Source of the DNA: a filamentous cyanobacterium CCP3
GTDB taxonomy: Bacteria > Cyanobacteriota > Cyanobacteriia > Phormidesmidales > Phormidesmidaceae
NCBI GenBank assembly: GCA_003022385.1
Contig: PYGV01000001.1
Span: forward strand, 1 to 64,000
Reading direction: 5' to 3'
Length of the DNA: 64,000 nt
The stretch's first letter is position 1, and each line of letters begins with the position of its first letter. A model generated the notes under the pieces. That model was not told the DNA's origin. It ran no database searches and saw only the letters and a program-made list of their open reading frames with translations. Shown piece after piece: positions 49,923 through 54,263 of this stretch. Position numbers and translations under genes: made by a program.

Positions 49923-52322
49923 ATGGTAGTAGCCTCACCTCCTCAAACTAGAGTCCTGACTGACGAAGAGCTGCGTAAAATGCACGCCTACTGGCGAGCC
50001 TGCAATTACCTCGCCGTAGGCATGATCTACCTGCGCAGCAACCCCCTGCTCAGAGAGCCGCTCCGGCCCGAGCATGTTAAGCACCGGCTGCTGGGCCACT
50101 GGGGCGCTTCTCCAGCCCTCAGCTTTACCTATATCCACTGCAATCGGTTGATCAAAAAGTACGACCTGGACATGATCTTTGTAGCCGGCCCTGGTCACGG
50201 TGCCCCAGGGGTGCTGGGGCCAGTCTATCTGGAGGGCACCTATGCCGAGATCTATCCTGACAAGGGCATGAACGAAGACGGCCTGCGCCGCTTCTTCAAG
50301 CAGTTTTCCTTCCCGGGCCACATCGGTAGCCACGTGACGCCTGAGACCCCTGGGTCAATTCACGAGGGCGGTGAGCTGGGCTACAGCATCTCCCACGCCT
50401 ATGGGGCGGTGCTTGACAACCCCGATCTAATCGTCACCTGCGTGGCGGGTGACGGCGAGGCCGAGACTGGCCCCTTGGCTACCTCCTGGCACTCTAACAA
50501 GTTTATTAACCCGGCTCGTGACGGCGCGGTGCTGCCGATTCTCAACCTGAATGGCTACAAGATTGCCAACCCCAGCATTCTCTCGCGGGTCTCCCACGAG
50601 GAGCTAGAGTACCTGTTCAGGGGCTACGGCTACACCCCCTACTTCGTCGAGGGCAGCGACCCCGCCGAGATGCACCAGAGCATGGCCGCAGTCATGGAAG
50701 AGTGCGTGCTCAAGATCAAAGCGATCCAGCGGGATGCCCGGCTCAACGACAACCTGGAACGACCTCGCTGGCCGATGATTGTGCTGCGCACCCCCAAGGG
50801 CTGGACCGGGCCGAAAGATGTCGATGGCCACAAGGTGGAGGGGTTCTGGCGATCGCACCAGGTCCCCATGGGCGGCATGCACAGCAACCCCGAGCACCTG
50901 CGCCTGCTGGAAGAATGGATGCGCAGCTATGGTCCTGAAGAATTGTTCGACGAGAACGGCACCCTAGTTCCAGAGCTGAGAGATCTGGCCCCGGTCGGCC
51001 ACCGCCGCATGAGTGCCAATCTGCACGCCAACGGCGGCATGCTGCGCAAGGCGCTGAAACTGCCCGACTTTCGCGACTACGCCATCAACGTGCCCAGGCC
51101 CGGCAGCGTCGAGTTTGAGAACACCAAGGTGCTGGGCCTTCTCATGCGCGACACCATGCGCGACAACCCCACCAATTTTCGCCTGATGGGGCCAGACGAA
51201 ACGGCCTCTAACCGGCTAAACGCCGTCTATGAAGTCACCAAAAAGGCGTGGATGGCCGATTTTTTGCCCGAAGATCTTGACGGCAGTGAACTCTCTCGCG
51301 AGGGCCGGGTGATGGAAATGCTCAGCGAGCACACTCTGCAGGGCTGGCTGGAGGGCTACCTGCTGACGGGTCGCCACGGCCTGTTTCATACCTATGAGGC
51401 CTTTGCCCACGTGGTCAGCTCGATGTTTAACCAGCACGCCAAGTGGCTGGATATCTGCAAAAACCACGTGCCCTGGCGGCGATCGGTGTCGTCGCTCAAC
51501 ATTCTGCTGTCGTCGCTGGTGTGGCGGCAAGACCACAACGGCTTTAGCCACCAGGACCCCGGCTACGTCGATCTCGTCACCAACAAGAGCCCCGATGTCG
51601 TGCGGGTCTACTTTCCGCCCGATGCCAACTGCCTGCTGTCGGTGGCCGACCACTGCTTCCGCAGCGTCGATTACATCAACGTGATTGTCTCCGACAAGCA
51701 GAGCCATCTTCAGTACCTGACTATTGATGAGGCGGTGACCCACTGCACCAAGGGCATCGGCATTTGGGACTGGGCCAGCAACGACGACTGCGGCACCGAG
51801 CCCGACTCGCCCGATGTGGTGATGGCCTGCTGCGGCGATATTGTCACGAAAGAATCGCTGGTGGCCACTGCTATCTTGAGGGAGGAGTTTCCTTTTCTGA
51901 AGGTGCGGTTTGTCAACGTGGTCGATCTGTTTACCCTGATCTCCCACGGAGAGCACCCCCACGGGCTGAGCAATCGAGACTTCGACTCGCTCTTCACCCC
52001 CGACAAGCCCGTGATCTTCAACTTCCACGGCTACCCCTGGCTAATTCACAAGCTGGTGTACCGCCGATCCAATCAGGAGCGTATTCACGTGCGGGGCTAC
52101 AAAGAGCAGGGCAACATCAACACGCCGCTGGAGCTGGCGATCAACAACGAGATCGATCGCTTTAGCCTTGTAATCGACGTGATCGATCGCGTACCCAAAC
52201 TGGGGTCGGCAGCGGCTCACGTCAAAGAAAAAATGAAAAACAAGATCATCGAGTGCCTTAACTATGCCCATACCGAGGGCAAAGACCAGGACGAAATTGT
52301 CAACTGGCAGTGGCCCTACTAG
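49923..52322 (+). CDS. xfp: phosphoketolase (xylulose-5-P/fructose-6-P)
   Basis: A thiamine-diphosphate enzyme that splits xylulose 5-phosphate (or fructose 6-phosphate) into acetyl phosphate and a triose or tetrose phosphate, giving cyanobacteria a carbon-saving route to acetyl-CoA. The 799-residue protein has the family signatures [37 protein letters not shown] and the TPP site [19 protein letters not shown], and the C-terminal domain with [12 protein letters not shown]. Length and order are typical of Xfp. GGAG lies 9 nt before ATG 49923. The gene is flanked by a long leader with a dyad and by a clear terminator, so it is monocistronic. Confidence 0.97.
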
Positions 52323-52352: not shown

Positions 52353-52385
52353 AAAAGCGGCCTGCTGTGCTGGGCCGCTTTTGAT
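52353..52385 (+). terminator. Rho-independent terminator after phosphoketolase
   Basis: AAAAGCGGCC pairs perfectly with GGCCGCTTTT (52373-52382) around a 10-nt loop; the T-tract is short (four Ts then GATT). Placed 30 bp after the stop. Confidence 0.85.
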
Positions 52386-52457
52386 TTGCAAAAGGTTTGG
52401 AAACGGGGAGGCCGGGTGAGATGGCTACAGCCACTTGGGTTAGGACGGAGCAGAACA

Positions 52458-52531
52458 GTCATTCCCATGACCACGGGAATCTATTCGAGAGCAGCTACTC
52501 CCACGTAGATTTCTGCCTGCGCGGGAATGAC
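52458..52531. repeat. degenerate palindromic REP-like element
   Basis: GTCATTCCC at the left end and GGGAATGAC at the right end form inverted repeats, with GGGAATCT and AGATTTCTGCC inside giving nested symmetry. The motif GTCATTCCC-xx-GGGAAT is a widespread bacterial intergenic repeat. Between phosphoketolase and the transporter leader. Confidence 0.5.
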
Positions 52532-52684
52532 GGTCCAGAATCATCTCGGACAACAAATCCTAACCGTAACGGCTACGGCTATAGGTTCTAAATCCTGCCA
52601 GCCAGCCTGTGGGAGCATTTACTGATTGTGGATTGCCTGTAGATGTGTTAGATTCTTTCTGAATTCAATTTAATAGTGACACTG

Positions 52685-52815
52685 CCTAATTCAGCTTTTG
52701 CTGAAGCGGAGGAACCAATTTTTGGGGCTTATCTCAGGGCGAATCGCATCGCCAGAGAAGGGGATCTCTCACCCCTCGCCCGTCAGCTAACTCCGTCGGC
52801 CTTGGGAGAGAACGT
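52685..52815 (+). ncRNA. ydaO/yuaA-type (c-di-AMP) riboswitch aptamer
   Basis: The leader of the transporter contains the conserved blocks of the ydaO/yuaA family in order: a small hairpin (TCAGC TTTT GCTGA), GCGGAGGAACC followed by AA, a GGGGC block with TTGGGG, GGGCGAATCGC, a AGGGG/CCCCT stem, then the near-invariant CGCCCGTCAGCTAAC and CGTCGGC, and GGGAGAG at the 3' end. These match the B. subtilis ydaO aptamer pattern at its invariant positions as I recall them. The family senses cyclic di-AMP and controls ion and osmolyte transporters, usually by switching genes off. A terminator hairpin at 52866-52898 follows in the expression-platform position. Confidence 0.85.
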
Positions 52816-52865
52816 ACTGGAAGCTTTTTCTAGCGCTATCCGTAGTTCTCCTACGACTGTTAACT

Positions 52866-52898
52866 CCCTCGATGACGGCTGTTCATCGAAGGGTTTTT
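52866..52898 (+). terminator. intrinsic terminator in leader (expression platform)
   Basis: TCGATGA pairs with TCATCGA (seven bp, seven-base loop), extended by CCC/GGG across a bulged A, and runs into five Ts (52894-52898). It lies only 28 nt before the transporter ATG, downstream of the riboswitch aptamer, as expected for transcription attenuation. Confidence 0.8.
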
Positions 52899-52925
52899 GT
52901 CTAGCACCACAACAGGAGACAGGGT

Positions 52926-54263
52926 ATGGAAACCTGGTCTGGGATCACCGCGTCTGTAGTCTTTTTTGGGGTCTTGGCCCTGATCGCTACCGAACGCATG
53001 CACCTGACGATCGCCGCCTTTTTGGGGGCCATGCTGCTGATTTTTCTGCACGTGTTGACCCTCGACCAGGCGATCGCCTACGTCGGCCACAGCCACGCTA
53101 CCCTGGCCCTATTTTTTGGGGTGATGGTAATGGTGCGCGCCTTTGAACCGACCAAAATTTTTGAGTACCTGGCGACTCAAATGGTGATTATGGCGCGGGG
53201 TGAGGGCAAGCGCTTGCTGCTGGGCATTGTGGCCATTACCACCCCGATCTGCGCCATGCTGCCCAACGCCACGACGGTGATGCTGCTGGCGCCGCTGATT
53301 CCGCCCATGGCGGCAGAACTCAACATCAACTTTGTGCCGCTGCTGATTTTGATGGTGTTTGTGGCCAACAGCGCTGGCCTGCTGACGATTGTGGGCGACC
53401 CGGCCACGTTTATTGTCGGCAGCTCGATCAATATGAGCTTTTTAGACTATTTGCTCAAGCTCAGCCTGGGGGGCGTGGTGGCGATCGCCACCATCGTGGT
53501 CATGCTGCCCATTCTCTTCCCCAACACCTGGAACAAAAAGCTGGATGATCTCGACCACTTGCCCCGCCCGGTGGTCAACCATCCCCGGATGCTGGCCCTG
53601 GGCGGCGTGATTGTGGGGCTAGTGCTGTTGCTCTTTGTGATTGGTGAGAGCCTGCCGGTGCCCGTTTCGCCCGCGGCGATCGCGCTGCTGGGGGCGGCCC
53701 TCTGCCTGCTGCTGACCCACCACAGCGGCATCGACACCGTGCAAAACATTCTGCGCGATGTCGACTGGAGCACGCTGGTGTTCTTTATGAGCGTGTTTGT
53801 GCTGATTGGCGGCCTGCAAGAAACCGGGGTGATCAGTTCAGCCTCGGGGCTGCTGGGGGTCGTGATCGGTCAAAATATTGCCCTGGGCGCCATGCTGCTG
53901 CTGTTTGTAACTGGCATTCTCTCTAGCCTGATTCCTAACATTCCCCTGGTGGTGGCCATGGTGCCCCTGCTGAAAGAATACCTGGTGAATGTGAATCTGG
54001 CCGGGCCGGAGCTGCTGTCGCCCGACTTTTCCGGGCAGATACCGCCTGAGATTTTGCCCCTGTTTGCGGCGATGATGTTTGGGGCTACCCTGGGCGGCAA
54101 CGGCACCCTGGTGGGCGCGTCGTCCAACATCGTGGCGGCGGGTATTGCCGAGCAGCACGGCAAGCCGATTTCCTTTGGGCTGTTCTTGAACTACGGTCTG
54201 CCGCTGATGGCGCTACAGCTGATCGTCATCAGCGTCTACGTGGGGGTTCGATTTTTGCTGTAG
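52926..54263 (+). CDS. ArsB/NhaD-type ion transporter (IT superfamily)
   Basis: A 445-residue membrane protein with 11-12 predicted helices. The pattern ILMVFVANSAGLLTIVGDPATFIVGSS and, in the second half, PNIPLVVAMVPLL and GATLGGNGTLVGASSNIVAAG are the two inverted-repeat re-entrant motifs of the IT superfamily (ArsB, NhaD, CitM/SLC13 relatives). The GxGTLVGASSN form is shared by NhaD/P-protein and ArsB-like members, so the ion may be Na+/H+ or an anion. AGGAG stands 8 nt before ATG 52926. The upstream leader carries a c-di-AMP-type riboswitch and terminator, pointing to ion or osmotic homeostasis. Confidence 0.92.
   Translation: METWSGITASVVFFGVLALIATERMHLTIAAFLGAMLLIFLHVLTLDQAIAYVGHSHATLALFFGVMVMVRAFEPTKIFEYLATQMVIMARGEGKRLLLGIVAITTPICAMLPNATTVMLLAPLIPPMAAELNINFVPLLILMVFVANSAGLLTIVGDPATFIVGSSINMSFLDYLLKLSLGGVVAIATIVVMLPILFPNTWNKKLDDLDHLPRPVVNHPRMLALGGVIVGLVLLLFVIGESLPVPVSPAAIALLGAALCLLLTHHSGIDTVQNILRDVDWSTLVFFMSVFVLIGGLQETGVISSASGLLGVVIGQNIALGAMLLLFVTGILSSLIPNIPLVVAMVPLLKEYLVNVNLAGPELLSPDFSGQIPPEILPLFAAMMFGATLGGNGTLVGASSNIVAAGIAEQHGKPISFGLFLNYGLPLMALQLIVISVYVGVRFLL

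Follow-up and report, generated by a model that had tools for sequence, protein, structure and literature searches.

Cyclic di-AMP is best known for its links to K+ and osmolytes. A review (PMC10117731) places the Synechocystis gene slr0753, which encodes a putative chloride efflux transporter, under the control of a c-di-AMP riboswitch, and three suppressor mutations that relieve a psbV mutant of its chloride requirement all map to this gene (PMC9896922). The leader RNA Ncr1680 precedes both slr0753 and D082_10970 of strain PCC 6714, which are a published orthologue pair (PMC5386190). Other c-di-AMP riboswitches that use a terminator act as OFF switches (PMC6488665; PMC9337991). The antiterminator of the Dehalobacter system is formed by bases of P1/pseudoknot, which pair with the left shoulder of the terminator (PMC9337991). 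Here we describe a related locus in a filamentous, Nodosilinea-type cyanobacterium, within a 64,000-nucleotide stretch of DNA that was analysed as a whole (hereafter, the window). The computations establish the family membership of an aptamer, an intrinsic terminator with compensatory changes, and conserved linkage to a single family of orthologous transporters. Our main reading, to which we assign a probability of about 0.8, is that a standard c-di-AMP riboswitch, presumed to bind its usual ligand, controls a probably chloride-carrying anion transporter through a terminator that would act as an OFF switch.

The first-pass annotation had named a ydaO/yuaA (c-di-AMP) riboswitch at this position and proposed a check with the RF00379 covariance model. 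An Rfam scan of the whole window (cmscan) returned a significant match to RF00379 at 52673–52815 on the plus strand, with a score of 72.9 bits and an E-value of 5.4e-15, covering the full model (positions 1–134). The score is nearly twice the gathering cut-off of 38 bits, and RF00379 is the sole Rfam family above its own cut-off in the whole window. The full-length aptamer begins approximately 12 nt 5' of the start given previously. Of the near-invariant aptamer blocks that had been reported, the quoted one, CGCCCGTCAGCTAAC, is located at 52777–52791 on the plus strand, and the columns of this core are invariant among 13 congeneric leaders. By the covariance model, the region is a genuine, ordinary c-di-AMP (ydaO/yuaA) riboswitch and would be expected to bind this ligand. 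The same genome carries a single copy of the diadenylate cyclase domain PF02457 (128.8 bits), indicating that c-di-AMP can be made there.

The gene downstream of the aptamer (52926–54263, plus strand) encodes a 445-aa permease of the CitMHS/ArsB superfamily (IT superfamily), as defined by its open reading frame and Pfam matches. It scores 201.7 bits against PF03600 CitMHS (cut-off 31.9) and 63.3 bits against PF02040 ArsB (cut-off 22.2). Against the curated NCBIfam ArsB models, its scores of 95.9 bits versus 457 and 90.6 versus 415 are both far below the cut-offs, as are those against the curated MamN and DASS models, and no NhaD model appears among its NCBIfam matches. The solved chains related to the permease by sequence are an ArsB pump and DASS transporters (DASS/VcINDY). 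The protein is therefore best described simply as a permease of the IT superfamily, to which no curated model gives a more specific name. The earlier label "ArsB/NhaD-type" is thus apt at the superfamily level, as the two Pfam matches indicate, but goes too far below it, with the curated ArsB thresholds out of reach and NhaD unmatched.

The transported ion is probably chloride, by probable orthology with slr0753, itself only a putative chloride exporter, assigned from suppressor genetics. The window permease shares 69% identity over 429 aa with the RF00379-linked transporter of a genome consistent with Synechocystis PCC 6714, an identification that is circumstantial. The published slr0753 L118P change was considered as an orthology marker; the residues were counted by eye, the numbering was indecisive, and the marker is not used as evidence here. 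A different cargo under the same riboswitch, such as an arsenite-like oxyanion, a dicarboxylate or Na+/H+, would be in keeping with the PF02040 match and with the similarity to the solved ArsB and DASS/VcINDY chains. We nevertheless consider it unlikely, as the curated ArsB, MamN and DASS scores are far too low, and the Synechocystis orthologue is genetically linked to chloride (PMC9896922) and carries the label "P protein", after the OCA2 family.

The aptamer end and the permease start codon are separated by 110 nt in the window. In the predicted fold of the leader, a tail hairpin (52804–52852, plus strand) joins the 3' tail of the aptamer (GGGAGAGAAC) to a TTCTCCT element, which doubles as an anti-Shine–Dalgarno sequence. 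This hairpin comprises 15 pairs, for which 97.9% of the cells are paired among the 13 congeners; because no pair changed on both sides, it is counted as conserved, not covarying. An intrinsic terminator, detected by pattern scan, fold and covariation, occupies 52866–52898 on the plus strand, with a stem at approximately 52866–52893 followed by a T run to 52898; the pattern scan alone places the stem at 52869–52889, with the tail AGGGTTTTTG. Two terminator-like sites were found in the scanned region, compared with 0.6 expected, the second being on the minus strand. The first-pass annotation had put an intrinsic terminator 28 nt before the start codon. The scan and the fold agree with this placement, and the measured gap from the end of the T run (52898) to the ATG (52926) is close to it, at 27 nt. 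In the 13 congeneric leaders, four of the ten pairs of the terminator helix changed on both sides. This covariation score, which could partly reflect the relatedness of the 13 leaders, was equalled in only 2 of 500 shuffles and exceeded that of every slid version. Four congeners (L040, L042, L044 and L046) have a weak T run or none. The Shine–Dalgarno sequence AGGAGA was read directly at 52914–52919 on the plus strand, and GGAGACA is invariant across the 13 congeners.

Since the intrinsic terminator carries compensatory changes, this leader is best modelled as a transcriptional OFF switch. At high c-di-AMP, the aptamer would fold and the downstream terminator hairpin would form, thereby halting transcription ahead of the permease gene. 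A fall in c-di-AMP would permit read-through, and the transporter would be made. The earlier proposal that c-di-AMP lowers transcription is strengthened by the terminator to this extent, while for the window's organism we infer both the OFF direction and the binding of c-di-AMP. A candidate antiterminator was constructed after the Dehalobacter model, in which CGUCGG (right shoulder, P1/pseudoknot) pairs with UCGAUG (terminator left shoulder). In the window, this pairing did not rise above shuffles: its energy is −6.7 versus a shuffle mean of −6.0, and 32% of the shuffles were equally good. The pairing is kept in most congeners. Another candidate, pairing CCGTCA of the aptamer core with TGACGG of the terminator loop, was dropped because it is confined to the window and L035 among the congeners.

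The leader may also be read as a translational switch, in which TTCTCCT would pair with either the aptamer tail or the Shine–Dalgarno sequence, c-di-AMP would shift the balance, and the terminator would be secondary or lineage-specific. Four relatives without an evident terminator (L061, L069, L088 and L103) carry an element of the TCTCCTGG type in the leader that could pair with the Shine–Dalgarno region, and their complementarity compared with shuffles gave p values of 0.000, 0.000, 0.000 and 0.007, respectively. Within the window's genus, moreover, both TTCTCCT and the pairing that joins it to the aptamer tail are conserved. In the window, however, the pairing between the anti-Shine–Dalgarno and Shine–Dalgarno sequences is at chance level (p = 0.78). 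Fold prediction gives this pairing a probability of 0.0, whether or not the aptamer is forced, compared with 0.8–0.9 for the tail hairpin, and the compensatory changes in the terminator stem likewise argue against translational control, which makes it improbable at this locus. The strong anti-Shine–Dalgarno elements of the four relatives, not seen in the window, point to different expression platforms across the lineages. The orthologous family therefore appears to use different platforms by lineage, with some relatives replacing the terminator by Shine–Dalgarno sequestration.

RF00379 is present in 197 of the 390 genomes of the cyanobacterial class, and the transporter in 158. Among the 139 tabulated transporter copies of the class, a tally of listed rows in which related genomes are non-independent, 78 are preceded by RF00379 on their own strand at a distance of up to 1.5 kb, and for 71 the distance is no more than 600 nt; one of the 78 linked copies (G138) scores below the Rfam cut-off. 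Within the window's genus, the riboswitch accompanies all 21 transporter copies in the sampled genomes, which are counted within the 78. The comparison of orthologous leaders that had been suggested thus found the leader conserved, completely in the genus and in more than half of the tabulated copies in the class. About 44% of the 139 copies are without RF00379 nearby, indicating that the transporter is not always in need of the riboswitch. Nearly all Nodosilinea-like loci have the leader, and the Pseudanabaena loci are without it. A decayed or coincidental aptamer match without control over the gene would fit a leader fold whose stability gain over shuffles is modest (z = −1.64), but it can be dismissed as very improbable given a score about twice the curated cut-off over the complete model, a core invariant across the 13 congeners, and linkage to the transporter in many cyanobacterial families.

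In Microcoleus-type and a few other loci (L058, L060, L062, L065, L070, L072–L077, L079, L080 and L105), the riboswitch follows the transporter gene, and an ABC permease comes next where the genes were read. At two loci, L009 (G113:C109:33087-34418) and L027 (G002:C122:6044-7378), the search output shows a single stop codon within the open frame around the transporter.

Upstream of the aptamer, a phosphoketolase gene (49923–52322) ends 350 nt before it and is followed by a terminator-like sequence, AAGCGGCC...GGCCGCTTTT, read by eye at approximately 52357–52381. Since the phosphoketolase gene has this terminator-like sequence of its own, the transporter is probably transcribed from a separate promoter. 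A sigma-70 promoter scan of the upstream region found none compared with 0.3 expected, and is thus uninformative. The region 52420–52600 is an intergenic repeat whose ends, of 17 nt each, are imperfectly inverted copies (52429–52445 and 52558–52574). Similar pieces are listed for eight further positions in the genome, and the repeat has the look of a small element that is mobile or repetitive.

The window's genome contains three RF00379 copies in all, each before one main target class. The two further copies are L002/L123 (G000:C42:2089-2249) and L003/L124 (G000:C279:8084-8241); one precedes a Usp-type gene together with another universal stress protein gene, and the other precedes an NMT1-type ABC operon. 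The simple terminator scan that was applied to the window found no terminator at either copy, which is weak evidence. At 133 riboswitch loci, taken from the best-scoring matches and picked for spread, so that the counts are not frequencies, the downstream clusters comprised an ABC permease with an NMT1-type binding protein and ATPase (44), a Usp-domain protein (39), and a transporter of the window type (33). Rarer clusters comprised a Na+/H+ exchanger with TrkA domains (10), a glycosyltransferase (3), and ExoD (3). In L223 (G143:C1:94500-98500) and L087, the riboswitch, a Usp-domain gene and the transporter lie in one apparent operon.

A broader and more tentative reading, for which we would put the odds slightly short of even, is that the c-di-AMP riboswitches of cyanobacteria make up a small, conserved regulon with three recurring classes of target, namely the chloride-type permease, the universal stress protein and the NMT1-type ABC operon. 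These would sometimes share one operon and would co-regulate anion with K+ balance, and within one orthologous family the platform would be switched between a terminator and Shine–Dalgarno sequestration. Published accounts of this regulon and of the change of platform may be sparser, and we do not claim novelty for either. The distribution of the linkage places the Synechocystis pairing in a broad phylogenetic frame, in which c-di-AMP appears tied to an anion-type transporter in many cyanobacteria. If the ion is chloride, as orthology and the published suppressor genetics suggest, c-di-AMP signalling would be linked both to the K+ counter-ion and to the chloride supply of photosystem II.

The locus shares its Rfam family and its arrangement, an aptamer followed by an intrinsic terminator, with Bacillus ydaO/kdp and with the Dehalobacter Na+/c-di-AMP tandem, both of which are OFF switches (PMC6488665, PMC9337991). 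Its target sets it apart from those systems: an anion-type permease of the IT superfamily, as opposed to a K+ or osmolyte gene. The antiterminator pairing, which is named in the paper for Dehalobacter (PMC9337991), is not significant in its equivalent form in the window. The genome that fits PCC 6714 differs in having a single RF00379 copy, compared with three in the window's genome, and in a spacing of 313 nt between the riboswitch and the transporter start, compared with 110 nt in the window. The closest counterpart is nonetheless Synechocystis slr0753, with the same aptamer family, a probably orthologous transporter, and the riboswitch directly upstream on the same strand. The first-pass annotation had regarded the pairing as unexpected and as a possible new clue to the ion, a view superseded by the literature that already ties the Synechocystis riboswitch to slr0753 (PMC10117731, PMC9896922). 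Since that association is published, the riboswitch–transporter pairing itself is largely known; the window adds a member to it, and thereby confirms and extends known biology.
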